Shown here: positions 3,106-63,923 of the stretch, piece after piece
Layout: every line of letters starts with the position of its first letter
Numbering within the stretch: the stretch's first letter is position 1
From: Bacillus sp. EB01
GTDB taxonomy: Bacteria > Bacillota > Bacilli > Bacillales > Cytobacillaceae
Length of the DNA stretch: 64,000 nucleotides
Assembly: GCF_000613125.1 (NCBI RefSeq)
Contig: NZ_HG964497.1
Coordinates: forward strand, 4,934,378 to 4,998,377
Reading direction: 5' to 3'
Program-made: the position numbers and the translations under genes
Notes under the pieces: model-generated
Database searches by the model: none
What the model saw: the letters and a program-made list of their open reading frames with translations, nothing else
Told to the model about the DNA's origin: nothing

Positions 3106-4209
3106 TTACTTTATTATCTGTAATTCTTTCGGGAATTTAGTCAATATTTCCACGCCACCAGCGGTTACATAAACGTCGTCTTCAATCCTGACTCCAGCCA
3201 ATTCAGGAACATAGATGCCTGGTTCAATTGTGAATACCATGCCTTCTTCAATTAAAAGCGGATTTGTTGATGTCAGTGAAGGATATTCATGAATGCTGAT
3301 TCCAAGCCCGTGTCCTAGGCGGTGCGGGAAGTATTCACCATAGCCCGCATCGGCAATTACGTTCCTGGCAGCAAGGTCCACCTCGGAACATGGTGCACCA
3401 GGACGGGATGCCTCAATGGCAGCCAAGTTTGCTTTTAAAACAGTATCGTAGATTTCCTTTTGCTTGTCGTTTATATCTCCATAGGCAACTGTCCTAGTAA
3501 TGTCTGAGCAGTAGCGGTCTACCACCACCCCGAGGTCAAAAAGGACGAGGTCCCCTTTCTGGATTTTGGTTTGGCCAGGATTACCGTGTGGGGATGCGCC
3601 GTTTTTACCTGTAAGGACCATGGTGCTAAAGGACATTTGACTAACGCCCTTTTTCTTTAATTCATATTCAATCGCGGCTAGCACTTCAAGCTCGGTTTTT
3701 CCCTCGCGTATTTCGCTGCTGCCAACTTCGATTGCATAGTCTGCAAGGGAGCACGCTTCGCGTAGCGACTTCATTTCACGTTCGTCCTTTACAAGCCTGA
3801 GTGTTCTCATTCTTTCTTCAGCGGAAAGAATATCGGAGGCATCCGGGAAAAGGCGTTGAATTTCTTCGTATCGTTCCACATTCATATGCTCTTTTTCAAT
3901 TGCAACCCTGCGGATTGAGGCGGAAGTCCGGGCGGCAATTGCCTTATTTATCATTGCCCATGGATTATCCGTATCGTTAAAGCCGATAATTTCATTTTGC
4001 CAGCCTGAATTCCTGGCATCGTTTTTTTCCATGGCTGGGCAAACGAGGAAAGGCTCTTCCTCCTGGAATACAGCCAATGCCAATAACCGTTCATGCGGAT
4101 CTGTGTAATATCCGGACAAATAAAAGACGTTATCAGGAGATGTTAAAAAACAAACATCTATTCCTTGTTCTTTCATCCATGTAGAAAGCTTTGCTAATCT
4201 TTGATTCAT
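3106..4209 (-). CDS. Xaa-Pro dipeptidase/aminopeptidase, M24 family
   Basis: 367 residues: an N-terminal creatinase-like domain (about 1-130) and a C-terminal pita-bread metallopeptidase domain. All five expected metal ligands are visible in order: Asp in LFDLGVV, Asp in CSDITRT, His in HRLGHGLG, Glu in FTIEPGI and Glu in VRIEDDV. It is predicted to be a cytoplasmic Mn/Co-dependent enzyme cleaving peptides with proline in position 2; closest in type to B. subtilis YkvY/YqhT. The start at 4209 is preceded by GGAGG seven bases away; the longer start at 4227 overlaps that site and is rejected. It is a single-gene unit, convergent with ald. Confidence 0.92.
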   Translation of the reverse strand: MNQRLAKLSTWMKEQGIDVCFLTSPDNVFYLSGYYTDPHERLLALAVFQEEEPFLVCPAMEKNDARNSGWQNEIIGFNDTDNPWAMINKAIAARTSASIRRVAIEKEHMNVERYEEIQRLFPDASDILSAEERMRTLRLVKDEREMKSLREACSLADYAIEVGSSEIREGKTELEVLAAIEYELKKKGVSQMSFSTMVLTGKNGASPHGNPGQTKIQKGDLVLFDLGVVVDRYCSDITRTVAYGDINDKQKEIYDTVLKANLAAIEASRPGAPCSEVDLAARNVIADAGYGEYFPHRLGHGLGISIHEYPSLTSTNPLLIEEGMVFTIEPGIYVPELAGVRIEDDVYVTAGGVEILTKFPKELQIIK

Positions 4210-4374
4210 TATGAAACCTCCAGTCAATTTCTATGTACACCATACTATTATACCAATTTTTCTAAGTGATATTGGGTGGTAGTGCCTAAAATTAAGGGTA
4301 TAAGGAAATAGCGGCAGGAAATAGCCGAAAAAAATGGAAAAATATTAATAAACAAGGAGAAAGGGGATTATAAC

Positions 4375-5055
4375 ATGAAAGTTTCATATCATGGCCATTC
4401 AGTAGTGAAAATTACAACCGGAGGCAAGACCATCCTGGTAGACCCGTTCATCAGCTTTAACGGTCTGACAGATTTGAAGGCGGATGAAGAAAAACCAGAT
4501 GTTATTATTCTGTCACATGGGCATAACGATCATGTTGGCGATACCGTCAGCCTCGCAAAAAAGAATGATTCCCTCGTAATCGCAAATCACGAGCTGGCAA
4601 CTTACCTAGGATGGAAGGGAGTAAAAACCCATGGAATGCATATCGGCGGCTCTTACCAATTTGACTTTGGAAGGGTAAAGCTTACCCAGGCTTTTCATGG
4701 TTCAAGTTATGAAACAAATGATAAGCAGTTGGTTTATTGCGGAATGCCAGCCGGCATTTTGGTTATGGCTGAAGGAAAGACCCTTTACCATGCCGGGGAT
4801 ACTGGATTATTCTCGGATATGAAATTAATAGGCGAAAGGCACCCTATTGACTTGGCTTTTCTTCCCATCGGAGACAACTTTACAATGGGACCGGAGGATG
4901 CAGCCTATGCGGCTGAGCTGTTGAATGCAAAACTAGTTGTACCGATGCACTACAATACTTTCCCGCCAATTAAGCAGGATCCGCATGCTTTTGTAGATTT
5001 GCTTAAGGGGGAAAATGGGAGGGTAATGGAACCGGGTGATTCGCTGGAATTGTGA
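4375..5055 (+). CDS. ytkL: UPF0173 metal-dependent hydrolase YtkL
   Basis: 226-residue protein of the metallo-beta-lactamase fold. The metal-binding signature HGHNDH (H-x-H-x-D-H) is near residues 49-54, and later ligands lie in LYHAGDTG and the C-terminal VPMHYNT. The N-terminus [13 protein letters not shown] matches the UPF0173/YtkL family, and the length is typical. The physiological substrate is not known. It is divergent from the peptidase gene, preceded by a purine-rich ribosome binding site (GGAGAAAGGGG), and followed by an array of 52-bp repeats rather than by another gene of an operon. In B. subtilis it is also next to ytoI. Confidence 0.93.
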
Positions 5056-8749: not shown

Positions 8750-9006
8750 TCTAGCTCCACAAGGAAGGCTTCGGCAGCATCAGCATCGCACGGAGAAAAA
8801 GTGATAGCACAAGGAAAGCTCCCTCGAAATTACATCGCACGAAATTACGCGATAGCGTAATGAGGATTTTCGAGGAGTCCATACGGTGCTGGCCACTAAG
8901 GAAAGCTCCTGAGAATAATCATCGCAGGGACACAAAGGAAAGCTCCAGCGAATTAACATCGCAGAGACAGGCGCATTTTGCCTGTCACGAAGGCGCTTGC
9001 GCTTTT
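8750..9006 (+). repeat. Dispersed repeat element, copy 2a
   Basis: Begins TCTAGCTCCACAAGGAA and ends GCGCTTGCGCTTTT. It carries several segments shared with copy 3 (CACGAAATTACGCGATAGCG, CACTAAGGAAAGCTC) and the GACAGGC...GCCTGTC hairpin. Segments such as GGAAAGCTCC are internally repeated several times. It lies directly after the nrnA terminator and is immediately followed by a second, shorter copy. Confidence 0.8.
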
Positions 9007-9009
9007 CTT

Positions 9010-9156
9010 GTCTAGCTCCAGCGCCTAGCGCCTAGTGTACTTCGGTCCTCTCGTTACGATAAGTCAACATCGATTCGCTAGTGCTCATCGTGTTTCCTTT
9101 ATCTCCTTCGAGGCCCTCCAGTCCATACGGCGCTGGTCAAGGCGCTGGAGCTTTTC
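9010..9156 (+). repeat. Dispersed repeat element, copy 2b, with terminal inverted repeats
   Basis: This short copy shows the element ends most clearly: CTAGCTCCAGCGCC at the left and GGCGCTGGAGC at the right (9141-9151) are inverted repeats. The right end reaches the stop codon of ytrI (TAG on the minus strand at 9156-9158). There is no coding potential. Confidence 0.8.
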
Positions 9157-9659
9157 TATCTATCCAGATTGATATGAAGCTGGATAACGAGTGTTGTATA
9201 GATAATTATTTCAGTCACTTCAAGCCGATATTTCTTGTCGTTAATGGTCACTCTTCTATTCTCAATAACCCTTTTTATTAACTCTTTGTTTTTAAAAGCA
9301 ACCTCCAGATCCTTTGTCTTCAAAGTTTTTAAATCTTCCATGACAGCGTCCTCTGTCTCGTGGACGCTGAGGAGATCGAGCCGATATTTTTGATGGTTTG
9401 TTATTTTGACCTGGATATTCTGGATAAGAAGCTGTTCGATATTTTGCTTGTTTAAGTTCTTGTAATCTTCCTGCCAAATAGCAATATCATCCTGGAGCTT
9501 CTTTATTTCATCCTGCTGGTCCTTTACAAGGATTGATTGCTGTTCCTGAAATACTCCGTTTATATAAATGAATATAGACCAGCTGATAGCTGCCCCAATC
9601 GCCATTCCGGCGAAGAACCTTTGCCAGGACCTGTCATTATACAATGGCGGAACTCTCAT
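9156..9659 (-). CDS. ytrI: YtrI sporulation membrane protein
   Basis: 167 residues, the same as B. subtilis YtrI, a mother-cell protein needed for efficient sporulation. A basic N-terminus (MRVPPLYNDRSWQRF) precedes one transmembrane segment (about 17-38), followed by a long charged, probably coiled-coil region (about 42-75) and a C-terminal domain. The start at 9659 overlaps the ytrH stop as ATGA, indicating translational coupling; the longer frame to 9686 lies inside ytrH and is rejected. In B. subtilis the pair is made under SigE control; I did not locate a certain SigE promoter here. The gene's stop codon abuts a repeat element. Confidence 0.92.
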   Translation of the reverse strand: MRVPPLYNDRSWQRFFAGMAIGAAISWSIFIYINGVFQEQQSILVKDQQDEIKKLQDDIAIWQEDYKNLNKQNIEQLLIQNIQVKITNHQKYRLDLLSVHETEDAVMEDLKTLKTKDLEVAFKNKELIKRVIENRRVTINDKKYRLEVTEIIIYTTLVIQLHINLDR

Positions 9660-9994
9660 GGTGTCATATGCTCCTGAGTAAACCATTCAATTAGGAGTGC
9701 CCCGGTTTGAGCTCCTCCAAGCGCGGACAGAATTACTAAGATTTGCTTAAAAATGTCCCGAGTTTGCCCCTCAAATATGCCTCTTTCAAATTGGTAAACT
9801 GCATCAAAGGTACCGCCAATTGCAGCAACAATGGCCCATATCCTCAATGAGGATGACAACCTTGTAATCGCCGTAAGTGCCGGCTGTCCAGTCAGGAACG
9901 AAGCAATTCCCCCAATGATAGCACCACCGAGCAGAACTCCAAGAGCAATGAAATAACTTTCAATAAATGATGGGAAGAAACCTGCCTGATTCAT
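9656..9994 (-). CDS. ytrH: YtrH sporulation membrane protein
   Basis: 112 residues with three to four hydrophobic segments (about 10-35, 50-70 and 85-105), matching B. subtilis YtrH in size, in sequence pattern (GGTFDAVYQFERGIFEG, TGQPALTAITRL) and in its position upstream of ytrI. It acts in the mother-cell membrane during sporulation; the molecular role is unknown. The ATG at 9994 is preferred over that at 10003 because AAAGGATGG overlaps the latter and is correctly spaced for the former. It is the first gene of the leftward ytrH-ytrI operon and is divergent from dnaE. Confidence 0.9.
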   Translation of the reverse strand: MNQAGFFPSFIESYFIALGVLLGGAIIGGIASFLTGQPALTAITRLSSSLRIWAIVAAIGGTFDAVYQFERGIFEGQTRDIFKQILVILSALGGAQTGALLIEWFTQEHMTP

Positions 9995-10070
9995 AGAATC
10001 CATCCTTTTTTATTGGCTGACTAAATACGTTAAACTAAATAATTACAGAAGCGAAGGTACTTAATTAATT

Positions 10071-10187
10071 GGAGCGGAAGGCACGTAGACTCGTTCGGAA
10101 ATCCGAAATATGCATTTTCTCCTGCGGTGCTTTCTCAAGGATGATTATTCAAAGGAGCTTTCCTTTGTGGAGCGGAAATGACGGAGG
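10071..10187. repeat. Degenerate interspersed repeat bounded by GGAGCGGAA
   Basis: A sequence flanked by GGAGCGGAA on both sides (10071 and 10169) with TAGACTCGTTCGGAAATCCG and CATTTTCTCCTGCGG inside. It resembles the common Bacillaceae 'GGAGCGGAAGG...ACTCCTGCGG' repeat. An inverted partial copy lies at 28636-28680. The rest of 9995-10457 holds only the two divergent promoter regions. Confidence 0.6.
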
Positions 10188-10396
10188 AAATTAAGTTTAA
10201 ACTATGTAGAATAAACTTAACTTTTTAAAATCCATATCATGAGGCGCTTTTGAGATCGCGGGCGGTTCTAATAGCGGTGAAAATAACCGCATTGCCAGAT
10301 CCCATACTTAATCTTATGGGCTGAAGTGAGCCAATATGAGACAAACCTAACCTTTTAACTTTCAATAGCTCTCAGTAAAAAAAGGGGAACATATAT

Positions 10397-52117: not shown

Positions 52118-52618
52118 TAGGTGTGTTTATAAAATCATGAAAAGCCCGGACCAAAACATGCCTCTGACATAATATGTATTGTTACTTGTAAGGGCCCGTT
52201 TTAAAAAAGGCTTATTCCGAATGGGGTTGGATTGTGTAATGATAATCAGCCTTTCAAGGATTAACATGAAAGGAAATGGGCGATGAAAAAGACTACTCAG
52301 CTGAAAACAATGCTTCACAGGCTACGGAAACTTTAACAATGCTAGAAGACTCGTTAAAAAGCTGCAAATAATCGATGTGGCGGGATGGAATCCCTCGATA
52401 ATTCAGCCTTCTTTTTTATATAAACTTTAAAAAGAATGGACTTTTTCAGTCGATGATAGTTCAGTGGAGGACCGCAAGAAGAGCAGGGGAATGGCCAGAA
52501 GTCATCCGCAGAGGAAATTTAGTTTGCCAGAGTGCTTGAATATCTTATTGAAAAGGCTCGTTCGTCCTATAAAGCGGTTTCGAATAAGTCGCTGAATTTA
52601 CAGTTAGAGGTGATAATT

Positions 52619-53275
52619 TTGAAGAAAAAAGTTCTTGTCATAGTTTCTCACCCGGATGATGAAATATTGGGGTGTGGTGGTACGATCAAGAAATTGGTAA
52701 ACAGTGGATACGAAGTCGTTACCATTATTACTGCAAAGGGCCGCAAAGAAGAAGAGCATCGTATTGAAAAGTGTATAGAACAGGCTAACAAGATTCTTGG
52801 TGTAAAGGAGTTTCATTTTCTTAAACTTCCTAATTTGAGGATGCATACAATCCCCCTCCATCAAATTACGAAAGAAATTGAAAAGTTACTTGACATCTAC
52901 AATCCTGAGATGATTCTCACTCATCATTATGGAGATTTAAATAAAGATCATCAGGTCACTTACCAGGCAGTATTAACGGCTGCACGGCCGCTTCCTGGTA
53001 AAACGATGGTTGAACTTCTTTGTTTCGAGACCGTCTCTTCGAGTGAATGGACGGAGCAAACGAATGATCGAACATTTAAGCCTAATTATTTCGTTAATAT
53101 TTCGGATACCTTGCAGGATAAACTTCTCGCGCTGAAGGAGTATGATGTGGAAATGCGCCCTTATCCTCATCCGCGCTCTTATGAAGGTGTTAAGTCTTTA
53201 GCATCGGTAAGAGGGATGACAGTGGGTTTGGAACATGCAGAAGCGTTTGAGGTTATAAGAAGAATATGGAAGTAA
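52619..53275 (+). CDS. PIG-L/LmbE-family deacetylase
   Basis: 218 residues. Zinc-binding AHPDDE-type motif SHPDDEILGCGG at residues 10-21, and the second His motif THHYGDLNKDH near 101-111. The family removes N-acetyl groups from GlcNAc moieties of glycolipids, bacillithiol precursors, mycothiol or antibiotics. The TTG at 52619 is chosen because GAGGTGA (52607-52613) is five bases upstream and the family starts KKKVLVIVSHPDDE; the longer frame from 52532 lacks a site. It heads a rightward run of island genes (spacings 43, 0, 22, 49 and 85 bases), probably one operon. The substrate is inferred to be a sugar-nucleotide or glycan N-acetyl group. Confidence 0.88.
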   Translation: MKKKVLVIVSHPDDEILGCGGTIKKLVNSGYEVVTIITAKGRKEEEHRIEKCIEQANKILGVKEFHFLKLPNLRMHTIPLHQITKEIEKLLDIYNPEMILTHHYGDLNKDHQVTYQAVLTAARPLPGKTMVELLCFETVSSSEWTEQTNDRTFKPNYFVNISDTLQDKLLALKEYDVEMRPYPHPRSYEGVKSLASVRGMTVGLEHAEAFEVIRRIWK

Positions 53276-53318
53276 GGGCAAATAAAATTGTCTAGAAATC
53301 AAAAGAGAGGCGAAAAAC

Positions 53319-54143
53319 TTGGAGAAAATGATTATCACTGCTGCTGTTACTGGCGGCGTTACAACAAGAAGAGATAACCCATACCTTCCCATAACACCTG
53401 ATGAAATCGCAAATGACGTTTATGAATGCTGGAAAGCAGGTGCTTCGATTGCCCATATTCATGCCCGTGAAAACGATGGTACTCCAAGCCAGCGTGTCGA
53501 CCTGTATCAAGAGATAGTGGAGAAAATTAGGGAACGGTGCGATGTTATTATCAATTTAACTACTACAGGATGGGGACAAAAAGGGGTTGAAGCAGACAGA
53601 TGGAATCACCTTGTCTGTAAGCCAGAAATGGCGACTTTCACACCGGGGTCCATGAACCGCAAAGACAGTGTCATGATTAATTCTCCTGCATTTGTTCGCA
53701 GGCTTGCAGAAAAGATAAATGAATACAAAATAAAACCAGAAATAGAGATTTTTGATTTTGGAATGATTGACCAAGCTTTAAAGCTGGCTAAATCAGGACT
53801 ATTGCAAGAGCCTTTGCACTTTCAGTTTGTGCTGGGGGTTCCAGGAGGTATTCCAGCCAATGCCAAGAACCTTCTTCATTTAACAGAGAGCATTCCATCA
53901 AATAGTACCTGGTCAATTGCAGCTGTGGGCAAGGGGCAGTTACCCATGAATTTATTAGGTATTATTCAAGGGGGGCATATTAGAACCGGGCTGGAAGATA
54001 ACGTTTATTTCAAATACGGTGAGCTGGCAAGGAATAATGTTCAGCTAGTAGAAAGGTTGGCACAATATGCGGCTGACCTAAACAGAGAGATTGCCACACC
54101 AAAAGAAGCCAGGAAGATTCTCGGAGTTGGGGAGGATTTTTAG
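53319..54143 (+). CDS. BKACE-family enzyme (DUF849, beta-keto acid cleavage)
   Basis: 274 residues, a TIM-barrel of the beta-keto acid cleavage enzyme family (first known from 3-keto-5-aminohexanoate cleavage). Metal ligands are in AHIHARENDG (His near 46 and 48); EIEIFDFGM, FVLGVPGGIPAN (about 177-188) and GGHIRTGLEDNVYF (about 221-234) are conserved. The family exchanges a beta-keto acid and acetyl-CoA for acetoacetate and a new CoA ester. The start is a TTG with GAGAGG eight bases upstream. It lies between a deacetylase and an LpxD-like acyltransferase, so it might supply or recycle an unusual acyl-CoA for amide formation; that role is inference. Confidence 0.88.
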   Translation: MEKMIITAAVTGGVTTRRDNPYLPITPDEIANDVYECWKAGASIAHIHARENDGTPSQRVDLYQEIVEKIRERCDVIINLTTTGWGQKGVEADRWNHLVCKPEMATFTPGSMNRKDSVMINSPAFVRRLAEKINEYKIKPEIEIFDFGMIDQALKLAKSGLLQEPLHFQFVLGVPGGIPANAKNLLHLTESIPSNSTWSIAAVGKGQLPMNLLGIIQGGHIRTGLEDNVYFKYGELARNNVQLVERLAQYAADLNREIATPKEARKILGVGEDF

Positions 54144-55067
54144 ATGGAGATGAAGCTTAAACTAGGCACTTTATTAGATTTTTTAAGGGAAAACAAATTG
54201 CTCACCCAACCGGCCAAAGGGGAAATTAACAAAGACTTGGTCATCACAGGTTTTTCTTCAATATATGATTCAAAAGCAAACACTTTATCAAGAATGGAAG
54301 CTCAGACTTTTGAGTGGTCGACTATAAAAAGTGCAGCAGTCATTTGCTCCGTTAAAGCTGTTGTTCCTGAACATGCAGGAATCGTTTTTATTCCTGTTGA
54401 AAATCCGAGGGATGCGTTTGCTGTCGTGGTGAATGAATTTTTTCCCAAACCGACACTTACAGGCATTTCCGATACAGCGGTAATTAGCCAGAATAATGTT
54501 CAAATAGGCAGAAATGTATATATTGGTCATGGTGTCATAATAGGGGACAACGTATGTATCGATGAAGGAACAAGGATTTTTCACAATGTGGTTATCGGCA
54601 ATAATGTATCTATTGGTTCAAATTGCATCATCCACAGCGGAGCTGTGATAGGGGCAGATGGGTTTGGTTATCAAAAGAACTTACAAGGAGAATATGTGAA
54701 ATTTCCCCATCTTGGAGGAGTTAAATTAGGTGACTATGTTGAAGTAGGAAGTAATACAGTAATAGCAAGAGGCAAGTTATCCGATACAGTCATAAAAAAG
54801 AATGTTAAGATTGGCAACTTAAATCACATATCTCATGATGTGGTCATTAATGAACATGGAATGATTACCCATCAAACACATCTGGGGGGGAATACAACCA
54901 TTATGCAAAACAGCTGGATCGCTCCTGGAGTAATTTTAAAACAAGGGATTACGATAGGAGAAGGTTCACTTGCCGGAATGGGATCAGTAGTTATTAGAGA
55001 TGTAAATGCTTTCGATACGGTGGCCGGGATACCAGCTAAACCGATAAACAAAAAGGGTAGCAAATAG
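54144..55067 (+). CDS. LpxD-like sugar N-acyltransferase
   Basis: 307 residues with the full LpxD layout. The N-terminal uridine-binding-like domain (about 1-100; ITGFSSIYDSKANTLS, AAVICSVKAVVPEH, ENPRDAFAVVVNEFF) is followed by a left-handed beta-helix of hexapeptide repeats (about 105-300). The LpxD block GADGFGYQKN...KFPHLGGVKLGDYVEVGSN (shown in part) and the catalytic-histidine segment NHISHDVVI (about 228-236) are present. LpxD transfers acyl groups to the 2-amine of UDP-glucosamine derivatives in lipid A synthesis, but this organism looks Gram-positive, so it probably acylates another amino sugar. The ATG follows the preceding stop directly, with GGGGAGG upstream. Confidence 0.85.
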   Translation: MEMKLKLGTLLDFLRENKLLTQPAKGEINKDLVITGFSSIYDSKANTLSRMEAQTFEWSTIKSAAVICSVKAVVPEHAGIVFIPVENPRDAFAVVVNEFFPKPTLTGISDTAVISQNNVQIGRNVYIGHGVIIGDNVCIDEGTRIFHNVVIGNNVSIGSNCIIHSGAVIGADGFGYQKNLQGEYVKFPHLGGVKLGDYVEVGSNTVIARGKLSDTVIKKNVKIGNLNHISHDVVINEHGMITHQTHLGGNTTIMQNSWIAPGVILKQGITIGEGSLAGMGSVVIRDVNAFDTVAGIPAKPINKKGSK

Positions 55068-55089: not shown

Positions 55090-56298
55090 ATGGATGTTAG
55101 TATAATCATGCCATCTTTTAACCGATATTCTCATTTACTCCTAAGTTTATATGCGTTGGAGAAACAGACCTTTGACCTGACTAAAATGGAAGTGATTTTA
55201 ATTGATGATGCATCTACGGATCATACCCCCCTTCTTAAAGATTATCAGCCCCCTTATAAATTTAAATATATTCGTAACAGTGATAATTTGGGCCTAGCAG
55301 CTGCCCGAAATAAAGGAATCAAGGAGGCTAAAGGAGAGATTATTATTATTTTGGATTCAGAAATGGTCGCCGATCCAGAATATGTAAAAAATAACTATCG
55401 GCACCATCTCAATGAGGAAAATACAGTTGTCATTGGAGGTGGAGTAGGTGTAAAAATGTATTCTTACCTTTTCCCTGAGCTTAATTCTGCGCAAATAAAA
55501 GAACTAAAAGTTCTCGCCAAAAAAAGCAAAAAGGTAAGGGCACGATTAAAACAGGTGATGAAAGGCGAAAAACTTCGGCCGTTTACGCGTAAAATAAACG
55601 CTCCAATTCCTCTTCTTGGTAAAAAGGATATTACAGATTTCCGAAGTTTAGCACCGTATACTGTACAAAAAAAACTAACGAAAAATATATTGAAAGGACT
55701 GGGAAATCGTTTGGAAACCAGTCCAATAGCGTGGATGGCTTGCCTCGGTAATATTTCCTTGAGGAGAGATTTCATCATAAAAACAGGAGGATATGACCCA
55801 AAATTTACCCAGTGGGGAGAAGAAGATAGGGAGTTTGCTTACCGGCTATATAAAGCTGGAGCAAAATTTAAAGTAGACCCAAAATTGAAACGATATCACC
55901 AAGAACATGCCGTACCTCGAAATAAAAAAAAGAAACAGTTGAAAAATTTCTTGTATTTTCAACAAAAACATCGAACGCTAGATGTTTGTATAAGATCTCT
56001 TAAATTTATCAAGAAATTTGATTACGTATTTGCGGAAAAGGTTCTAGAGGAATATATATTACTTATGGGTAAGTTTCCTGGAAGGTATACTGATTTTCAG
56101 GATTCTATTATTCTTATGCTCCTAGAAATCACAAAATTAAAAGCACAAAAAAAAGCAATTAAGAATCTTTTGGCGAAGACAGGTATTGAAGCAGGCAGTG
56201 AAAGGAAGGAACGAATCATGCAGCAAAGAAGTGAAATTGAATCCTTTAAGAGTTATAGACATTTAATCGCATTATTCGACTTGCTTGTGGACCGATAA
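55090..56298 (+). CDS. Family-2 glycosyltransferase, tandem paralogue 1
   Basis: 402 residues. A GT-A domain (about 1-120) begins MDVSIIMPSFNRYSHLLLSL with LIDDASTDHTP, and a D-x-E pattern (ILDSEMVADP) sits where most GT2 enzymes have D-x-D. The middle part (about 120-215) is variable. A galactosyltransferase-7C-like motif GGYDPKFTQWGEEDREFAYRL (core WGEEDREFAYRL, about 242-253) and YHQEH follow; the C-terminal 120 residues are helical and basic. It is predicted to be cytoplasmic, adding a sugar to a surface glycan or protein. Clearly paralogous to the next gene. GGGAGGTGAACAT gives a strong ribosome binding site. Confidence 0.87.
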   Translation: MDVSIIMPSFNRYSHLLLSLYALEKQTFDLTKMEVILIDDASTDHTPLLKDYQPPYKFKYIRNSDNLGLAAARNKGIKEAKGEIIIILDSEMVADPEYVKNNYRHHLNEENTVVIGGGVGVKMYSYLFPELNSAQIKELKVLAKKSKKVRARLKQVMKGEKLRPFTRKINAPIPLLGKKDITDFRSLAPYTVQKKLTKNILKGLGNRLETSPIAWMACLGNISLRRDFIIKTGGYDPKFTQWGEEDREFAYRLYKAGAKFKVDPKLKRYHQEHAVPRNKKKKQLKNFLYFQQKHRTLDVCIRSLKFIKKFDYVFAEKVLEEYILLMGKFPGRYTDFQDSIILMLLEITKLKAQKKAIKNLLAKTGIEAGSERKERIMQQRSEIESFKSYRHLIALFDLLVDR

Positions 56299-56347
56299 AA
56301 TTTTTGTGTAAAACGGTTTTAAGAAAACTGTTGAAAGGGGTCATTAT

Positions 56348-57565
56348 ATGGATGTTAGCATTATTATTCCGTCCTTTAACCGTTACCCTTTAAATTTGTT
56401 TTGTCTGTTCTCTTTAGAGAATCAAACGTATGATTTGTCTAAGATGGAAGTCATATTAATAGATGACTCCTCTACCGATGATACCCCGCTCCTTAAGCAG
56501 TTCTCTCCACGTTATAAGTTTAAATACATTCGCAATGAGTCGAATTTAGGTCTCGCCGCTACCAGGAATAAAGGACTCCGGATAGCCAAGGGTAAAGTTG
56601 TTATCTTTTTGGATGCGGAGATGATTGTTGATGCTAAATATGTTGAAAATCATTTAAAGCATCATCAATCAAAGGATCATGCAGTAGTAATCGGCGGGAG
56701 GAAACGACATAAACTTTATTCATGTCTCTTTCCAGATTTTAATTCAAAACAAACAAAAGATCTTTCCAGGTTACTTAAAAAAAAGCTCACCAGAAGATGG
56801 TTTTCGAAGCTGCTCGGGAAAAAAATCCATTCAAAAAATATTGGTCGATATGTTAAACGAATCAAATCTCCAAGCATCCTTTTAAAAAAGGAAGACATCA
56901 GAAACTTTTCGCAATTAGAGATGCTGTCCATTACAAAAAAGCATACCAATAATGTTTTGGAACAATTAGGAGATCATTTTGATTTTAGTCATATAAATTG
57001 GCTGGCTTGTGTTGGTAACCTTTCTGTAAAAAAAGACACAATTGACAGGATTGGTGGTTATGATGAAGATTATAAGGGTTGGGGAACAGAAGACCATGAT
57101 TTGGCTTTCCGATTAAAAAAAGCTGGTGTTACGTTTGTTGTAGAACCGGAATTAATTCGCTACCACCAGGAGCACCCCATAGTGGCAGGCTACTCAAAGC
57201 AAGGAAAAAAGAACCGGGTACTTTTTCAAAAAAAGCATCCCGTTCTGGATGTTTGCATCAGATCCTTAAAATCTATTCAAAAAGAAGACTACACATTCAT
57301 GAATTTCATCATGAATGAACATTATTCCCTAAAAAGGAAGTTCCCTGGAATGTATGAAGAATTTAACCAATGTATTGTTGAGTTATTGCAAGTAGCAGCA
57401 ATCTTGGATTCCCAGGGCAAGCAGGTCATAAACTTAATGCAAAGTGTGGGTATCCAGGAAGACCGAAAAAGAAAAGCCCGAATTATTAATCAAAGAAATG
57501 AAATTGATTCGTACAAACAATATCCGCATTTAATTAAACTATTTGATTTGTTGATTAATAGATGA
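56348..57565 (+). CDS. Family-2 glycosyltransferase, tandem paralogue 2
   Basis: 405 residues, colinear with the preceding gene over its whole length: MDVSIIIPSFNRYPLNLFCL, LIDDSSTDDTPLLKQF, LDAEMIVDAKYVENH (again D-x-E), WGTEDHDLAFRLKKAG, YHQEHP, and a shared C-terminal ending ...FDLLINR. The middle segment (about 120-215), likely to choose the acceptor, is the most diverged part, suggesting duplication followed by specialisation. AAAGGGG lies before the ATG, 49 bases after its paralogue. Confidence 0.87.
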   Translation: MDVSIIIPSFNRYPLNLFCLFSLENQTYDLSKMEVILIDDSSTDDTPLLKQFSPRYKFKYIRNESNLGLAATRNKGLRIAKGKVVIFLDAEMIVDAKYVENHLKHHQSKDHAVVIGGRKRHKLYSCLFPDFNSKQTKDLSRLLKKKLTRRWFSKLLGKKIHSKNIGRYVKRIKSPSILLKKEDIRNFSQLEMLSITKKHTNNVLEQLGDHFDFSHINWLACVGNLSVKKDTIDRIGGYDEDYKGWGTEDHDLAFRLKKAGVTFVVEPELIRYHQEHPIVAGYSKQGKKNRVLFQKKHPVLDVCIRSLKSIQKEDYTFMNFIMNEHYSLKRKFPGMYEEFNQCIVELLQVAAILDSQGKQVINLMQSVGIQEDRKRKARIINQRNEIDSYKQYPHLIKLFDLLINR

Positions 57566-57650
57566 ACATACCCCAGCCCAAAAGAAACAAATAAAATGGG
57601 TAAGTTTGATTTTCTCAATTCCTATCCTTTGAGTTTAGGAGTGAATGTTT

Positions 57651-58844
57651 TTGAAAATGTCAAAGAATCAAAAACCTAAGCATGACCTTCCTGCAGTTGT
57701 TTTAGATTTAAGCATAAATGGTCTGGGAATCATCCGCAGTTTAAAACAAAAAGGCATTAAGGTTTTTGCATATGATGTCTTATCAAAATATAAAAAAGGA
57801 AGAACTCTCCACGCCATATGTGGACCTTGTCCACACCCAATATATGAAGAAGATAAACTGTTAGACCATTTAATTAAAACAGGGGAAAATTTGAAATACA
57901 AAGCTGTCCTATTCGCAGGGTCCGATGATTATGTTTTATTTATTTCCAAGTTCAGAGATCAGTTAGCTGAATACTTTTTATTCATTATGCCAGATCATTC
58001 CTTAATCCAATCTGTATTAGATAAAAGACAAACTTATAATCTAGCTCTCAAGCATAACATTCCGACCCCTAAAACTTTTTTTATAGAAAATCCAGACCAA
58101 TTGGAAAATATTATGGATGGTCTTGTTTTTCCATGTATATTAAAACCTGTATTCTCAGCCGATTACCGTAAGCGGTTGAATAAAAAGGCAATTATTATTG
58201 AAAGCGCAGCTCAGTTAAAAACCTTGTACCCGTTTTATGCACAATTCGGCGAATTAATGATACAGGAATTCATCCCCGGTGACGATCATTGTGTTTACGA
58301 AATAGCAACTCTTTTTAATAAACAAATGGATTTAATCGGTTTGTTCTCTAGCCAAAAACTTCAACAATATCCACCCATATTTGGATCAGGCGTCCTTGTT
58401 AAAAGCGAAAAGAATGAAGAACTCGTCAATTTGGGAGTATCATTCTTTAAAACACTTAATTTTGTTGGTTTGGCGCATGCAGAATATAAAGTGGATCCAC
58501 GGGATGGCACTCTTAAATTTATCGAAATAAATGCCCGGACGACAGTATCCAACAGTTTGTCATTTGCATCAGGAATCGATTTTTCCTATCTATATTACCT
58601 AATGGCAACCGGCCAAAATCCTCCAAAAGAATTAAATCAAAAGGAGGGGATAAAATGGGTCCACTTTCCGCGATATTTGTTAGGCTTTTTGGAGAAACGT
58701 AAAAAGGGCGGTATGAGCTTTGGTAAATGGATAAACTCTTTTACCGGAGTAAAATCGTTTGCATCATTTCGTTTTGATGATCCAATGCCATTTATACGCG
58801 GAGTAATTTCTGATTTCAAATATGCATGGAAAAGCAGGAAGTGA
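57651..58844 (+). CDS. ATP-grasp protein, second in the island
   Basis: 397 residues from the TTG at 57651, which lies nine bases after AGGAG; an ATG at 57645 is too close to that site. The N-terminal Rossmann-like part (DLPAVVLDLSINGLGIIRSL) resembles carbamoyl-phosphate-synthase/D-Asp-ligase-type ATP-grasp proteins. The ATP-grasp core has FPCILKPVFSADYRKRL, LMIQEFIPGDDHCVYEIATL and LKFIEINARTTVSNSLS (metal-binding Glu/Asn). The C-terminal segment is rich in aromatic and basic residues. It may ligate an amino acid or a carboxylated sugar component during glycan assembly; the substrate is unknown. Last gene of the rightward run, followed by a perfect terminator. Confidence 0.82.
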   Translation: MKMSKNQKPKHDLPAVVLDLSINGLGIIRSLKQKGIKVFAYDVLSKYKKGRTLHAICGPCPHPIYEEDKLLDHLIKTGENLKYKAVLFAGSDDYVLFISKFRDQLAEYFLFIMPDHSLIQSVLDKRQTYNLALKHNIPTPKTFFIENPDQLENIMDGLVFPCILKPVFSADYRKRLNKKAIIIESAAQLKTLYPFYAQFGELMIQEFIPGDDHCVYEIATLFNKQMDLIGLFSSQKLQQYPPIFGSGVLVKSEKNEELVNLGVSFFKTLNFVGLAHAEYKVDPRDGTLKFIEINARTTVSNSLSFASGIDFSYLYYLMATGQNPPKELNQKEGIKWVHFPRYLLGFLEKRKKGGMSFGKWINSFTGVKSFASFRFDDPMPFIRGVISDFKYAWKSRK

Positions 58845-58960: not shown

Positions 58961-59686
58961 CTATTCCTTATCTTCTTTACTAAATCCAATTCCCATTGGC
59001 TTTGTAATTTTTGGAATATAGTTTTTCACTTTTCCAATTACTTTACTCCTTTTTATAAGTGCTTTATTTGATCTTGAGAATGTATGGGAATTGCTATCTG
59101 AGCGTCTTAGATAGACGTAATTGTATCTGCTGGTTGTATGGATTCTAACATTATTCTCCTTGCATCTTTTTACAAATTTGCTGTCGGTACCTGAACCCTT
59201 CCTTGATGGAAATTTCAAATTCGGGTAGAGCTCCTTTTTAAAAATAAGTGTGCCTCCTTTTAGCGAGCTTTTCCCCGGTTTATTTTCACTTCCTAATTGG
59301 CGGATTGTTAGAAGTTTTTTTTCCTCAAAGTACATGAAAGACTTTCCCTTTCCTACCAATTGTGCGTCCGTTGTATCAAAAATCTCCATCGCCTCTGTTA
59401 GATAATAGGGTGAGTAATAATCATCATCATCAATCTTTGCAACATGATCAAATTTAGCTTTTTCAATGCCGAAATTCAAGCATTCACCCAGCGTTTTTTC
59501 TTCCCGAAGCTGGTATACCGACACATTCGGATAGTTTTGTGCCCGTTCCTTCCATTTATTAAGCTCCATATTGTCATTATTTAATATAATGATTAATTCT
59601 TTATCAGCCCATAGTTGTCTATCAAAGTTTTCAAATATATTATCCATCATAATATCCCGTATTGTGCAGGCAATTAGCGATACCAA
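58961..59686 (-). CDS. Small family-2-like glycosyltransferase
   Basis: 241 residues. MVSLIACTIRDIMMDNIFEN opens a GT-A fold with LIIILNNDNMELNKW, GECLNFGIEKAKFDHVAKID (the glycosyltransferase-fold helix and strand) and the metal-binding DDDD of KIDDDDYYSP (about 87-96). GGTLIFKKELYPNLKF and GTDSKFVKRC follow. It is predicted to be a cytosolic or membrane-associated transferase; donor and acceptor are unknown. The start is a TTG with GGAGG nine bases upstream. It converges on the ATP-grasp gene through the shared long terminator and is divergent from the gene at 60075; the 388-base gap between has no further gene I can support. Confidence 0.82.
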   Translation of the reverse strand: MVSLIACTIRDIMMDNIFENFDRQLWADKELIIILNNDNMELNKWKERAQNYPNVSVYQLREEKTLGECLNFGIEKAKFDHVAKIDDDDYYSPYYLTEAMEIFDTTDAQLVGKGKSFMYFEEKKLLTIRQLGSENKPGKSSLKGGTLIFKKELYPNLKFPSRKGSGTDSKFVKRCKENNVRIHTTSRYNYVYLRRSDSNSHTFSRSNKALIKRSKVIGKVKNYIPKITKPMGIGFSKEDKE

Positions 59687-60074: not shown

Positions 60075-60773
60075 ATGATCCCATCGTACGATTTTAAGTT
60101 AAAGCCTAAAAGTAATATGGTTATTTGTTGTTTAGCAACAGGTACAGACCATGTTGCTTCAATGGAAATAATGAAACCAACGGTTGAATATTACGGCCAA
60201 CTTCATAACATTGACACTTTGTTTTTTAAAGAACTCCTTCTTCCAAAACAAAAGGCTAAAAAACATAAAGTATTCCTTTTATACAATCTATTAAAATACT
60301 ATGAAATTGTAATGTGGATGGATGCCGATACTATAATCGTGGATCCATCGGAGGATATACGGAAAGAATTATCATCCAATCATGTCGTTTATATGACGAG
60401 TTATTTCGGAAGAGATCCTCTATTTCCTAATAGCGGTGTTATCGTCGTTAAACGGGATCCTGCAGCGCTGGAGATTTTAGAGCATATTTGGAAGTTTAAA
60501 AAGAAGCGTCGCAAGGGCTGGTGGGATCAACAAGCGTTTTTAAACCTTCTGGGCTATAAAAACAGAAATGTTAAAATACTTGGCTATGAAGGACCAACAA
60601 AATACACCTCGAAAATTGGATTCCTGCATCTTAAGTGGAATAGCAGACCTAATCGAAAAGATGTTGCCCCAAAACCCAATATCATGCATCACTGTGGTCT
60701 TCGATGGGAGACGAGATTAAAAAGAATGAAAAAGAGCTACCGGCAATTTTTGAGGAATATCCAAAAGAATTAA
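60075..60773 (+). CDS. GT34/GT8-like galactosyl- or glycosyltransferase
   Basis: 232 residues. The motif VMWMDADTIIVDPSEDI (about 78-94) gives the D-x-D nucleotide-sugar site. LFPNSGVIVVKRDPAA, WWDQQAFLNLLGY (about 155-167) and the C-terminal HHCGLRWETRLKRM are typical of the galactosyl-transferase GMA12/MNN10 (GT34) type. No signal peptide or membrane helix is seen, so cytoplasmic action is likely. AGGAGAG precedes the ATG. It is followed after 105 bases by the large multimodular gene, in the same direction. Confidence 0.82.
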   Translation: MIPSYDFKLKPKSNMVICCLATGTDHVASMEIMKPTVEYYGQLHNIDTLFFKELLLPKQKAKKHKVFLLYNLLKYYEIVMWMDADTIIVDPSEDIRKELSSNHVVYMTSYFGRDPLFPNSGVIVVKRDPAALEILEHIWKFKKKRRKGWWDQQAFLNLLGYKNRNVKILGYEGPTKYTSKIGFLHLKWNSRPNRKDVAPKPNIMHHCGLRWETRLKRMKKSYRQFLRNIQKN

Positions 60774-60878
60774 ACGTTTTGAGTTTTTAAGAGGGATATC
60801 CCCGCGTTAACCCTTATTATTGCTTGATAAACATTCCCATTTTGAATCTGTACTTATTCTGGAAAGGATGGTGATACA

Positions 60879-63800
60879 GTGCATAATACAAAAAAAACAA
60901 AAAAAGACAAAAGTAAGAAGGGTTCCTCGCGAAGCCCAAAGCCCTTATCTAATAAGAAGAAAAATCCAGCTATGCTACAGCACGACCACAAGGAAGCCGC
61001 AAGGTTAAAGGAGGAATATAAGGATAAAGGTTTGGATAGTGTTGCGGACACCTTTGTTCTTTATAGGATAATTGGAAACGATATATATCCAAGACAAAAA
61101 GAAGGGCAAACGTTTGATAACTTAAAATTTTTGCTTGAAAATGAGCCTAACCTTGAAGATTGTGAGAAACGGTGGGTTGTTAACCGGATTATTGATCGAG
61201 AGGAAGAAGAAACAATAGTAAAACTCTTGCAGGAGTATAATCAACAATTTATTCATCTGCCATTTTTTTTAGACGAATATAAAAAAATTGGCTGGGATAC
61301 TAATGGCTTTAAAAAACCTGGATTTCTTGCAACAAAAGAATTTGAAGGTCTGAAGTCTGAACAAAAAAACAATGCTATTGCAGCAGCCTATAGGCTTAAA
61401 ATCAATTATGTAATGAACGTGAATGGTGCCCGGAATATCGCACTGCGTGATGGTAAAATGCGTGCAAAGTGGGTGCTGCCTTGGGATGGCAATTGTTTTA
61501 TCACTTCTTCCGCCTGGAGGGAAATTCGTAAAGGTATAAGAAAGTCACCATACCTGAAATACTTTGCAGTCCCGATGGCTAGAGTATTAGACAACTCTCA
61601 GCTTGTCTCAGAAAATTTCACTCCCAGCCCGGTTGAAGAACCGCAAATAATCTTTAGAAGTGATTCAAAAGAAGAATTCAATGAGAATTTTCCATATGGC
61701 CGGCGGGACAAAGTGGAATTGTTCTGGAGGTTGGGTATTCCAGGTAAATGGGACAAGTGGAAGGACGACCCATGGGACCAGGTTCGAAGTCCAAAATCAC
61801 CTGAAGCAGGGCAATTTGGATTTGCAGGATGGGCAGCAAGAATGTTTTCTGGGAATAAAGTGCTGGACAAGGATACAAAACAGAGTTTTAAGCAAAGAAA
61901 TCTTGCCCGAACAGAGGCCATCATTAACACCATTCGCGCGATAGACAGAGATAAGATAGCAAAACGAAAGAGCGGTCGAGAGTTATTATTTTATCAGATG
62001 GACATACTCGAGAAGGAGAAGAGTATGTTTCTTGATGGTGCAGAAATGCCTTTGATTACCAGACTTTTAGATGATGCTGAAGAGGCATTAACAAGGGAGC
62101 CGTATTCAGTAACTGATAAAAAATCCCTTCCCCCTAGCGGTATAATAAACGATTATTGGCACCCTGCACCCTACTGGTGGCCAAATAAAAAGAAAAAAGA
62201 TGGCCTGCCTTATGTTAGGCGGGACGGGAGGAGAGTTCCAGGTACAAGGCTGTATGAGCCTGAAAGTGATAAATATGACCGAACCCGTCTGCAACGGGTA
62301 TTTGATGACTCTATCACACTTGCCCTAGCCTGGTTTTTTACTGGCGAAAAGAAATATGCGGAACATGGCTCACGAATTCTCTATCGATTCTTTGTTAATC
62401 CCGCTACCAAAATGAATCCTCATTTAAAATATGCTCAGGTTAGAAGGGGCAGAAATAACAATCAGGGGACCACCAAAGGGATTATTGAAATGAAGGATAT
62501 CTACTTTTATTTGGATGCTGTCCGCCTTTTTTGCAAGGCGAATACAATCCCTGAGGAACACCTTATACGTTTTAAAGATTGGCTGTCAAGTTATCTTGAT
62601 TGGCTTATCCATTCCCCTCAAGGGAAAGGGGAACGCCTATCGGATAATAACCATGGAACCTATTATGATCTGCAGGTTGCTGCTATTGCAGACTTCCTTG
62701 ATGATAACCCGGTCTTATATGAAGCTATTGTAAGAGCTCAATCCAGAATTGAAACACAATTTGCGCCAGACGGTGCACAGCCTAAAGAGCTGGTTCGGAC
62801 CCAGCCCGCCCACTACTGTTGTTTTAATCTGCAAGGCTGGATCTATATGACCGAAATTGCCGGAAGATGGGGCACGGACTTATGGGCTTATCAATCCCGC
62901 AAAGGGTCCAGCCTAATAAAAGCCGTCCAGTGGCTCTTGACGCATACGGGTAAAAAGTGGCCAAATAAACGGAGTGATGACTTCGATGAAGAACGCTATC
63001 TTCCCATTTGGTTTTCTGCACCTCGGGAATCCAAATTAAAGCTAAATAAAACTCTTTTTCCTCATTCGAAATACTCTGTGAAAACACGATTTTTCCCGCA
63101 TGACGGTGTGCGCCCTTACTGGAACATTGGGAAAGCAGAGGTTAAGAGAAATGATAATTTTGTTAACAAACATCCGAGCTTTGTTTTTGGAATTCCTCTT
63201 AGGGCTAAAGCAGTGTCCAAGGACTGGAAAAAAGTTTGTGAGAATCTAGAAACCACGTTATATTCTCTTTCCAGGCAAAAAAATAAAAATTTTGTTATTT
63301 ATCTTGCAGCTCATGAATATCCGCCAGTTAATTATTTTGGCCTTGATGTACGAGTGCTCCTGGCCGGTTTTCCAGTTCCAAACAACGTAAAGGAAATTGG
63401 CCGAGATAAAGGGAGAAAAAAACAAATGATTGGAACAGCATTGAGGCAAGCAACGTATGAATCCCTTTATTATATGCATTTAGACGCAGATGATATTTTG
63501 GATCCATCATTGGTTGAAACTGTTCTGAAGGATGATAATAAAAGGGGATATCTTATCACAAAAGGTTATATATATGATGTCACAAATAAATTAATCGCCC
63601 GGTGTAATTCGTTTTGGCGCAAAAGTGGTTCATGTGCAATTATGTACTTCAAAAAAAATGAATTTCTTTTACATCCTAAAGACAGGAATAGTTATTTTTC
63701 AAAATTTGAACGCCATAAGAATTATAAAAATGTCGCCGAAGAATACGGCAGAAAGCTTGAGCACTTGACAGGCCGGATGGCAGTGTACATGGTTAATCAT

Positions 63801-63923
63801 GGGGAAAATACAAGGAAATATAGAGGTAAAGGGAAACGTCAACAAGACTACGTTAAGAAAAATCTGATAAAAAATAAGAGAAGAATTCAAAAAATCAGGA
63901 AACGTTTTCCGGAACTTTTTTAA
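60879..63923 (+). CDS. 1014-aa multimodular protein: glycosyltransferase-like, alginate-lyase-like and glycosyltransferase modules
   Basis: GTG start with AAGGATGG upstream. Residues 1-50 are basic and disordered. Module 1 (about 55-330), VLYRIIGNDIYPRQ...WVVNRIID and NVNGARNIAL...KWVLPWDGNCF, looks like a GT-A-type domain. Module 2 (about 370-720) matches alginate-lyase-family helical barrels: SGIINDYWHPAPYWWPN (about 420-436), an SDNNHGTYYDLQVAA active-site-like block (about 588-602) and RTQPAHYCCFNLQGW. Module 3 (about 765-1014) is a family-2-like transferase with VFGIPLRAK and YYMHLDADDILDPS (D-x-D, about 864-877). No secretion signal is seen, so all three parts seem cytoplasmic, odd for a lyase. 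A synthase with built-in chain-length or editing activity is one reading; domain identities for modules 1 and 2 are moderate. Confidence 0.78.
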   Translation: MHNTKKTKKDKSKKGSSRSPKPLSNKKKNPAMLQHDHKEAARLKEEYKDKGLDSVADTFVLYRIIGNDIYPRQKEGQTFDNLKFLLENEPNLEDCEKRWVVNRIIDREEEETIVKLLQEYNQQFIHLPFFLDEYKKIGWDTNGFKKPGFLATKEFEGLKSEQKNNAIAAAYRLKINYVMNVNGARNIALRDGKMRAKWVLPWDGNCFITSSAWREIRKGIRKSPYLKYFAVPMARVLDNSQLVSENFTPSPVEEPQIIFRSDSKEEFNENFPYGRRDKVELFWRLGIPGKWDKWKDDPWDQVRSPKSPEAGQFGFAGWAARMFSGNKVLDKDTKQSFKQRNLARTEAIINTIRAIDRDKIAKRKSGRELLFYQMDILEKEKSMFLDGAEMPLITRLLDDAEEALTREPYSVTDKKSLPPSGIINDYWHPAPYWWPNKKKKDGLPYVRRDGRRVPGTRLYEPESDKYDRTRLQRVFDDSITLALAWFFTGEKKYAEHGSRILYRFFVNPATKMNPHLKYAQVRRGRNNNQGTTKGIIEMKDIYFYLDAVRLFCKANTIPEEHLIRFKDWLSSYLDWLIHSPQGKGERLSDNNHGTYYDLQVAAIADFLDDNPVLYEAIVRAQSRIETQFAPDGAQPKELVRTQPAHYCCFNLQGWIYMTEIAGRWGTDLWAYQSRKGSSLIKAVQWLLTHTGKKWPNKRSDDFDEERYLPIWFSAPRESKLKLNKTLFPHSKYSVKTRFFPHDGVRPYWNIGKAEVKRNDNFVNKHPSFVFGIPLRAKAVSKDWKKVCENLETTLYSLSRQKNKNFVIYLAAHEYPPVNYFGLDVRVLLAGFPVPNNVKEIGRDKGRKKQMIGTALRQATYESLYYMHLDADDILDPSLVETVLKDDNKRGYLITKGYIYDVTNKLIARCNSFWRKSGSCAIMYFKKNEFLLHPKDRNSYFSKFERHKNYKNVAEEYGRKLEHLTGRMAVYMVNHGENTRKYRGKGKRQQDYVKKNLIKNKRRIQKIRKRFPELF

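Follow-up and report, generated by a model that had tools for sequence, protein, structure and literature searches.

Alginate lyases cut uronic-acid polymers and are normally secreted; AlgL belongs to family PL5. In KfoC-like two-domain glycosaminoglycan (GAG) polymerases, two transferase modules lie in one cytosolic polypeptide. The gene considered here occupies positions 60879-63923 (forward strand) of a 64,000-nucleotide stretch of Bacillus sp. EB01 DNA (NZ_HG964497.1, 4,934,378 to 4,998,377; the whole stretch is hereafter the window), and encodes a protein in which a PL38-type lyase module stands between a probable glycosyltransferase and a remote GT2-type glycosyltransferase. We tentatively propose that this protein assembles a glycan in the cytosol and that its lyase-fold domain would act on a uronic acid of the growing chain while its own transferases hold that chain, with C5-epimerization somewhat more likely than cleavage.

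With the PL38 lyases (CUL-I, TpPL38A, Aly38A; Protein Data Bank [PDB] entry 8bdq), the window protein shares a sequence family, a putative active site (D/Q/N/N/H/R/Y), and an expected uronate substrate. Two PL38 enzymes are described as endo-β-1,4-glucuronan lyases and one, Aly38A, predicted to be extracellular, as an alginate lyase (PMC9029943). Unlike these free lyases, the window protein lacks an export signal, is fused to glycosyltransferase-type modules, and falls in a separate clade with residues of its own. AlgL is comparable as a lyase serving polysaccharide synthesis, but it is a stand-alone periplasmic protein with no transferase fusion, and by hydropathy no AlgL-type export signal is present in the window protein; an Arg and a Tyr are named as key residues of AlgL (PMC8829089). 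Dermatan sulfate epimerase, DS-epi1, uses a lyase-like toroid for polymer-level C5-epimerization in biosynthesis (PMC8006597). It differs in having an extra β domain and in residing in the animal Golgi, and its domain, DUF4962, was not matched in the window protein by Pfam at E values up to 1; the likeness is in the way of working only. KfoC-type polymerases contain two transferases, as the window protein probably does, but no lyase-fold module between them. The lyase and GT2 families are thus known; what appears to be new is a glycosyltransferase-fused, nonsecreted, biosynthetic-looking PL38 clade, of which no description was found in the limited collection of literature searched.

The gene is a single uninterrupted frame with a GTG start and a product of 1014 amino acids (aa). 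Its parts are as follows.
60863..60871, forward strand: ribosome-binding-site-like stretch, read from the sequence, ending 7 nucleotides 5' of the start codon
60879..61022, forward strand: basic low-complexity N-terminal tail, aa 1-48, poorly conserved (nonsynonymous divergence, dN, 0.17 against locus L001)
61023..61952, forward strand: N module, aa ~49-358, conserved family and probable GT-A-like glycosyltransferase (fold unproven), with RIIGNDxxPRH, NGARNxAL, LPWDGNC, EEPQ, and YGRR
61953..62051, forward strand: linker, aa 359-391, a gap between profile matches
62052..63134, forward strand: lyase module, aa ~392-752, PL38-type (PF05426, E 6.8e-76; 3nfv and 8bdq; tree), with a clade-specific PHDGVRPYW end
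63165..63920, forward strand: C module, aa ~763-1014, remote GT2-type glycosyltransferase by profile comparison

A sequence-only reading of this DNA had proposed one 1014-codon frame, three modules in one protein, and no signal peptide; all three points stand, and its module borders (50-340, 360-730, and 750-1014) shift slightly, to those listed. The identical three-module order recurs in one frame in L001 (1008 aa), from Mesobacillus campisalis, which belongs to another genus and is the nearest named relative (89%), and in L087 (997 aa), from a genome in another family of the same order, so the parts belong to one gene. The start of the window protein carries no hydrophobic segment (12-aa hydropathy maximum in residues 1-45, −0.94), the 19-aa maximum over the whole protein is 0.99, and by this simple measure there is neither a signal peptide nor a membrane helix.

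The proposed alginate-lyase-like character of the middle module was also borne out. PF05426 (Alginate_lyase) matched at aa 410-690 with 255.8 bits against a cutoff of 22.2, the closest solved relatives were 3nfv (E 1.3e-57) and 8bdq (E 1.7e-42), and the module extends to a conserved PHDGxxPYW end. Membership of PL38 is assigned through PF05426 and the nearest solved chain 8bdq rather than through a PL38-only profile; 8bdq is listed in PMC12088678 as a PL38 enzyme with an (α/α)7 barrel. Alignment with 8bdq, numbered as its chain is printed, located the putative active site and a clade-specific loop.
62223..62225, forward strand: D449, equivalent to 8bdq D108 (N in PDB chain 9fi0)
62250..62258, forward strand: loop insertion around Y459, in 12/12 fused and 0/23 free lyases
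62436..62444, forward strand: Q520 (8bdq Q173, N in 9fi3) and clade-specific R522
62646..62654, forward strand: N590-N591-H592 (8bdq N241, N242, and H243)
62796..62798, forward strand: R640 (8bdq R292)
62814..62816, forward strand: Y646 (8bdq Y298, F in 9fi5), putative catalytic acid/base

Roles are assigned to these residues from mutant chains of the 8bdq enzyme (D108N in 9fi0, Q173N in 9fi3, and Y298F in 9fi5, three of five mutant sequences) and from related families. All fused domains (12/12) and all free ones (23/23) share D449, Q520, N590, N591, H592, R640, and Y646 without exception, the conservation of NNH being partly selected, as it belonged to the search motif for nine of the free rows; 2 of 11 short lyases outside that motif filter agree on the seven residues. 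Identity to the window lyase falls to 42% among the fused domains. Between the window and L001, the ratio of nonsynonymous to synonymous substitution (dN/dS) is 0.24 for the N module, 0.095 for the lyase module, and 0.20 for the C module, making the lyase the most constrained of the three. Because the seven putative site residues are invariant and dN/dS is lowest in this module, its catalysis is likely retained.

In the lyase tree, the 12 fused domains form one clade (100/100), separate from the 23 free lyases. The free set includes 9 of 17 plasmid lyase rows (10 examined) and 1 of 2 phage-collection lyase rows examined; it leaves out L032, a split lyase gene represented by an 88-aa piece, and L021 and L015b (lyase-like, without the His) are counted on neither side. 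Locus L087 enters this 12-versus-23 comparison and the pairwise comparisons and is absent from the distance correlation, start hydropathy, and locus-hit counts given below; alignments A1 and A2 have five and three rows only. Residue 522, two positions after the catalytic Gln, is R or K in 12/12 fused and V or I in 23/23 free domains, and Y466, Q472, E537, D540, and W654 are each found in 12/12 fused and at most 1/23 free domains. Within the PHDG..PYW end, H741 is kept in 9/11 fused rows and is D in L087. These clade-specific changes point to a new substrate or outcome.

The free lyases differ also in their setting. A signal-like start, judged by hydropathy and reading, is present in 19/21 free relatives drawn from genomes, and the annotated neighbors of the free lyases examined are catabolic: TonB/SusD, MFS, KdgM porin, GH28-related, and heparin lyase genes. 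A survey of surroundings with four profiles, all built partly from fused loci, covered 9.5-23 kb at fused loci and 4.9-19 kb at free loci. It placed GT2 in or beside 9/11 fused loci (5 of the 7 that were neither used for the GT2 profile nor near-copies), UDP-glucose dehydrogenase (UGDH) together with GalU at 2/11, and sulfotransferase at 2/11, versus 0/19 free loci with GT2, UGDH, GalU, or sulfotransferase.

Three further lyase-like sequences were noted. Beside the N-lyase fusion of L015 lies a second PF05426 protein (3218-4900, reverse strand; 560 aa) consisting of a lyase and a coiled-coil-like end, in which the catalytic His is Ile and the other six site residues are kept. In Hyphomonas johnsonii (Pseudomonadota), whose fusion is at locus L002, PF05426 matches a further protein at a catabolic-looking locus (L053, 3412-5634); this protein has 740 aa and a start resembling that of a lipoprotein. 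At L021 (G1223:C117, 975-2843), an N module is followed by a broken lyase-type remnant with an internal TAA, which is either a decayed fusion or a sequencing fault.

Fusion of an N module to the lyase was found in 11 proteins (the window protein, L001, L002, L015, L016, L071-L075, and L087), eight of them from Pseudomonadota genomes. In the twelfth fused protein, L052, the same lyase type is joined to GT2 and GT4 domains instead of N. The blocks RxxGND, PRxxxGQ, NxARNxAL, WxLPxDGN, EPQ, and YGRR are invariant across 10 fused N modules, and the module holds a candidate DxD-like motif.
61482..61490, forward strand: WDG, aa 202-204, with D203 and G204 invariant in 10/10 fused N modules

The N module is a conserved family of its own without named relatives. 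The order of its motifs resembles the ARN...DxD part of GT-A enzymes, and the module is probably a GT-A-like glycosyltransferase. For 10 of the fused proteins, N and lyase distances correlate (r = 0.91, or 0.87 without L001; none of 10,000 permutations as high), so the two modules have been inherited jointly.

The GT2-like C terminus predicted from the sequence alone holds as a remote GT2 domain. The C module of the window scores 12.4 bits against PF00535, below the cutoff of 23.3, and a relative at L016 (2683-3576) scores 23.5 bits, just above it. A profile of eight C-module relatives aligned with a seven-row GT2 profile at an hhalign probability of 83.7 (E 8e-6), and the best PDB match of eight C modules was the putative glycosyltransferase 5hea (E 0.29).
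63480..63494, forward strand: LDADD, aa 868-872, DxD motif of the C module, its three D columns invariant in eight relatives

The order N-lyase-C was seen in the window protein, L001, and L087. L015, L073, L074, and L075 are N-lyase proteins, and L071, L072 (both above the PF00535 cutoff), and L016 (22.8 bits, just below 23.3) end in another kind of GT2. Because the C-module profile does not match the GT2 ends of L071, L072, and L016, GT2 appears to have been gained behind the lyase at least twice. In the 2775-aa H. johnsonii protein at L002 (3959-12286), large extra parts (sulfotransferase, coiled coil, GT2, and GT4) precede the N module and the lyase. Two loci of the window's order carry no lyase: L008 is N-C, and L009 has N and C as adjacent genes. 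All five rows of this order form a single group in the N tree (99/99), where L087 pairs with L008/L009 (96/92) and the window pairs with L001 (98/95). Since N-lyase-C stands on both sides of that group, the simplest reading is that the L008/L009 lineage lost its lyase module. The order's three rows in the lyase tree nest within Pseudomonadota rows beside H. johnsonii (100/98), which suggests transfer across phyla; the N tree is uninformative here.

The family is rare. N modules were detected in 4/193 genomes of the window's family (its own, M. campisalis [G091], G149, and G155), with no match in seven other genomes of its genus in that survey, in 1/348 genomes of its phylum (its own), and in 2/348 of its order (its own and G1880, of another family). 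They were present in 3/348 genomes of the order of H. johnsonii and 4/385 of its class, one of these again being H. johnsonii. Among 349 genomes of the latter's phylum, the fused-lyase profile matched 15 genomes with 17 lyase matches. Six of these lie in frames of at least 750 aa, have E values of at most 5e-111, reach profile position 358-361, and all carry N ahead of the lyase; the other 11, in frames of 378-523 aa, have E values of at least 5e-84 and reach at most position 345. Viral contigs contained no relative of the whole protein, the N profile, or the fused-lyase profile, and 3/50,697 phage-collection records matched, with lyase or C pieces only. Plasmids gave 34 places in 30 records; among the best 30 of the 34, 17 match the lyase and 13 the C module, and none reaches N. 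Divergent N modules were also seen at L020 (6885-8993) and L022 (7231-9639), behind a long N-terminal half without a Pfam match and near sulfotransferase-type and GT2-type genes. On the Priestia plasmids L024 and L025, ~3.6 kb separates a UGDH gene from a stand-alone C-module gene; genes for YheC/D, pyruvyl transferase, and GT-D accompany them.

Within 6 kb of the window gene there are three GT2 genes and one GT34-like gene, which agrees with the glycosyltransferase-rich island described earlier.
60075..60773, forward strand: Nucleotid_trans/GT34-like glycosyltransferase (Pfam); similar genes adjoin the fusion in L087 (Pfam) and in L001, L008, and L009 (by reading)
58961..59686, reverse strand: divergent GT2 (Pfam); like genes in L087 (Pfam) and in L001, L008, and L009 (by reading)
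57645..58844, forward strand: ATP-grasp protein (family search)
55090..57565, forward strand: two GT2 plus Glyco_transf_7C glycosyltransferases (family search)
52532..55067, forward strand: PIG-L deacetylase, BKACE, and LpxD-like acyltransferase (family search); same order in L001 1862-4319 by reading

Constancy of these neighbors, raised in the sequence-only reading, holds in part: the GT34-like and divergent GT2 genes occur in all five loci of the order (window, L001, L008, L009, and L087), but the PIG-L/BKACE/LpxD-like trio only in the window and L001, as read from open reading frame lists within 19-23 kb with no search. The trio resembles a pathway to an amino sugar whose unusual N-acyl group would be made by BKACE; in the limited literature collection, a search turned up no paper bearing the name of that enzyme. 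On the 5' side, the island is preceded by threonyl-tRNA-synthetase-type, IF-3, L20, and dUTPase-type genes. Downstream, beyond the window, are ATP-grasp genes (three YheC/D by Pfam and one LAL-like by reading), then genes that read by eye as pheS/pheT.

Genes for uronate supply and sulfation adjoin some members. In L087, the fusion (ATG at 10233, preceded by GGAAGG) overlaps the last 20 nucleotides of a UDP-glucose 6-dehydrogenase gene (8930-10252), whose product is above the cutoff of TIGR03026 and matches the TuaD model NF047673 at E 1e-169, below the cutoff of that model; rmlA, GT34-like, GT2, three sulfotransferase, MurF-like, YheC/D, and LAL genes complete the island. Sulfotransferase, UGDH, GalU, and GlmS genes adjoin the L052 fusion, UGDH and GalU genes lie 8-9 kb upstream in L001, and sulfotransferases occur at 3/12 loci (L002, L052, and L087). 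As a separate observation, Mur-ligase-like genes and, in L009, a TupA-like ATP-grasp gene are present at L009 (8204-9061 and 4223-5692) and L087 (14506-15897), in islands with YheC/D ATP-grasps.

The idea, offered in the sequence-only reading, of a glycan-making enzyme with a built-in epimerase or lyase activity is supported by the intact putative site and the biosynthetic setting of most loci. Under our tentative proposal, modules N and C would build part of a uronic-acid-containing surface glycan. A transferase would add or hold a uronic acid of the glucuronic acid (GlcA) type made from UDP-GlcA. Judging from the intact residues, Asn, His, and Arg would then neutralize the carboxylate, and Tyr646 would take part in removal of the C5 proton. 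In the least certain step, the enolate would mostly be reprotonated from the other face, giving an iduronic acid (IdoA)-type residue, rather than losing its C4 substituent; the lyase scaffold would then serve synthesis, as it does in DS-epi1. Epimerization is favored on three grounds: cleavage by a tethered enzyme would defeat its own purpose, the active-site region has been rebuilt in this clade, and some members have UGDH and sulfotransferase genes beside them. We judge C5-epimerization somewhat more likely than cleavage, with lyase editing close behind. Relatives with an intact site occur in distant bacteria, and this suggests that a cutting enzyme was rebuilt into a tool for surface-glycan making.

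Several results weigh against this proposal. The kept residues are those of a lyase and fit cleavage as well as epimerization; since the catalytic residues of DS-epi1 are also conserved in heparinase II (PMC8006597), sequence cannot tell the two activities apart. The transferase character of N lacks direct matches: Pfam gave no GT family for it and NCBIfam no match at all, a PDB profile search with 10 N modules returned chance matches only (best E 0.78), and the hhalign pairing of NGARNxAL...LPWDGNCF with "ARN...D" in the GT2 profile was not significant (probability 2.5, E 0.018). AlphaFold models from three rows only were too poor for a fold search, for the N module (predicted local distance difference test score, pLDDT, 39.7) and for the full protein (pLDDT 35.6, with only a helical pattern in the lyase part). 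Start hydropathy does not cleanly part the groups (fused, −0.63 to 1.64; free, 1.1 to 2.94), and the free lyases L081_6030 and L082_6152 are also without a signal-like start.

The surroundings contribute further counterpoints. In the window genome, a single contig of 5.28 Mb, the closest full-length UGDH match is ~1.7 Mb away; no UGDH above the cutoff was found near the G149 and G155 loci (L008/L009), nor any UGDH in the surveyed stretch at 9/12 lyase-containing loci, the window included. No GT2 match was obtained in the surroundings of L015 and L074, and L073 and L074 (the latter by reading) adjoin GDP-fucose genes. G149 and G155 keep N and C with no PF05426 match anywhere in the genome, which means that making the glycan does not require this domain. 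Because the lyase is missing in these two relatives and nearby UGDH is missing at 9/12 loci, its role would be modifying rather than essential, and the link to GlcA is weakened.

The nearest competitor is that the module is a true β-eliminase in the cytosol, trimming an over-long or faulty product or capping the chain with an unsaturated uronate. We regard this as possible, if doubtful. All seven putative lyase residues are intact, the characterized PL38 enzymes are glucuronan or alginate lyases (PMC9029943), and AlgL provides the precedent of an alginate lyase in a biosynthetic operon that clears accumulated alginate (PMC8829089). Yet a cutting domain in the cytosol, attached to its own transferases, would reverse what they do unless kept under tight control, and the substitutions beside the catalytic Gln, with the loop insertion, point to altered chemistry or substrate, though a new lyase substrate would be compatible with them. 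Action on a small intermediate, either a lipid-linked oligosaccharide or a uronic-acid building block tied to ATP-grasp/MurF-like ligases, in place of a polymer, strikes us as improbable. Islands of the order do hold YheC/D and LAL ATP-grasp, Mur-ligase-like, and (L009) TupA-like genes, whose products might amidate carboxylates, and the two signal-less free lyases (L081 and L082) adjoin ABC-transporter genes (by reading, with no family search), but the PL38 enzymes described in PMC9029943 act on polymers. Loss of catalysis, with the lyase fold merely binding the acceptor chain, was likewise suggested from the sequence alone; the fused context and the ability of G149 and G155 to manage without the module would suit it, but it was not borne out and is very improbable, given retention of the seven residues in every fused domain at identities down to 42% and the lowest dN/dS of the three modules. 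A chance fusion, frameshift, or assembly error, to which only the rarity of the N module (2/348 order genomes, one the window's own) lends anything, is effectively eliminated by the same three-module frame in another genus (L001) and another family (L087).

A broader extension of the epimerase proposal is that a PL38-derived clade of polymer-level uronosyl C5-epimerases has been incorporated into glycosyltransferases, so that some Bacillus-like bacteria and some Pseudomonadota would have a GAG-like route (UDP-GlcA dehydrogenase, transferase, C5-epimerase, and sulfotransferase) independent of the one in animals; we consider it unlikely. By sequence, members of the clade look like degraders and would probably be annotated as alginate lyases, yet they are joined to glycan-building modules. 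Should they prove to be epimerases, they would provide single-chain bacterial enzymes for making iduronate-type glycans, of use in GAG synthesis, and would add another case in which a lyase scaffold has been turned to synthesis. Should they instead cleave, they would show that a glycan can be edited in line as it grows. Either way, the uronate glycan predicted for this Bacillus-like group can be put to the test.

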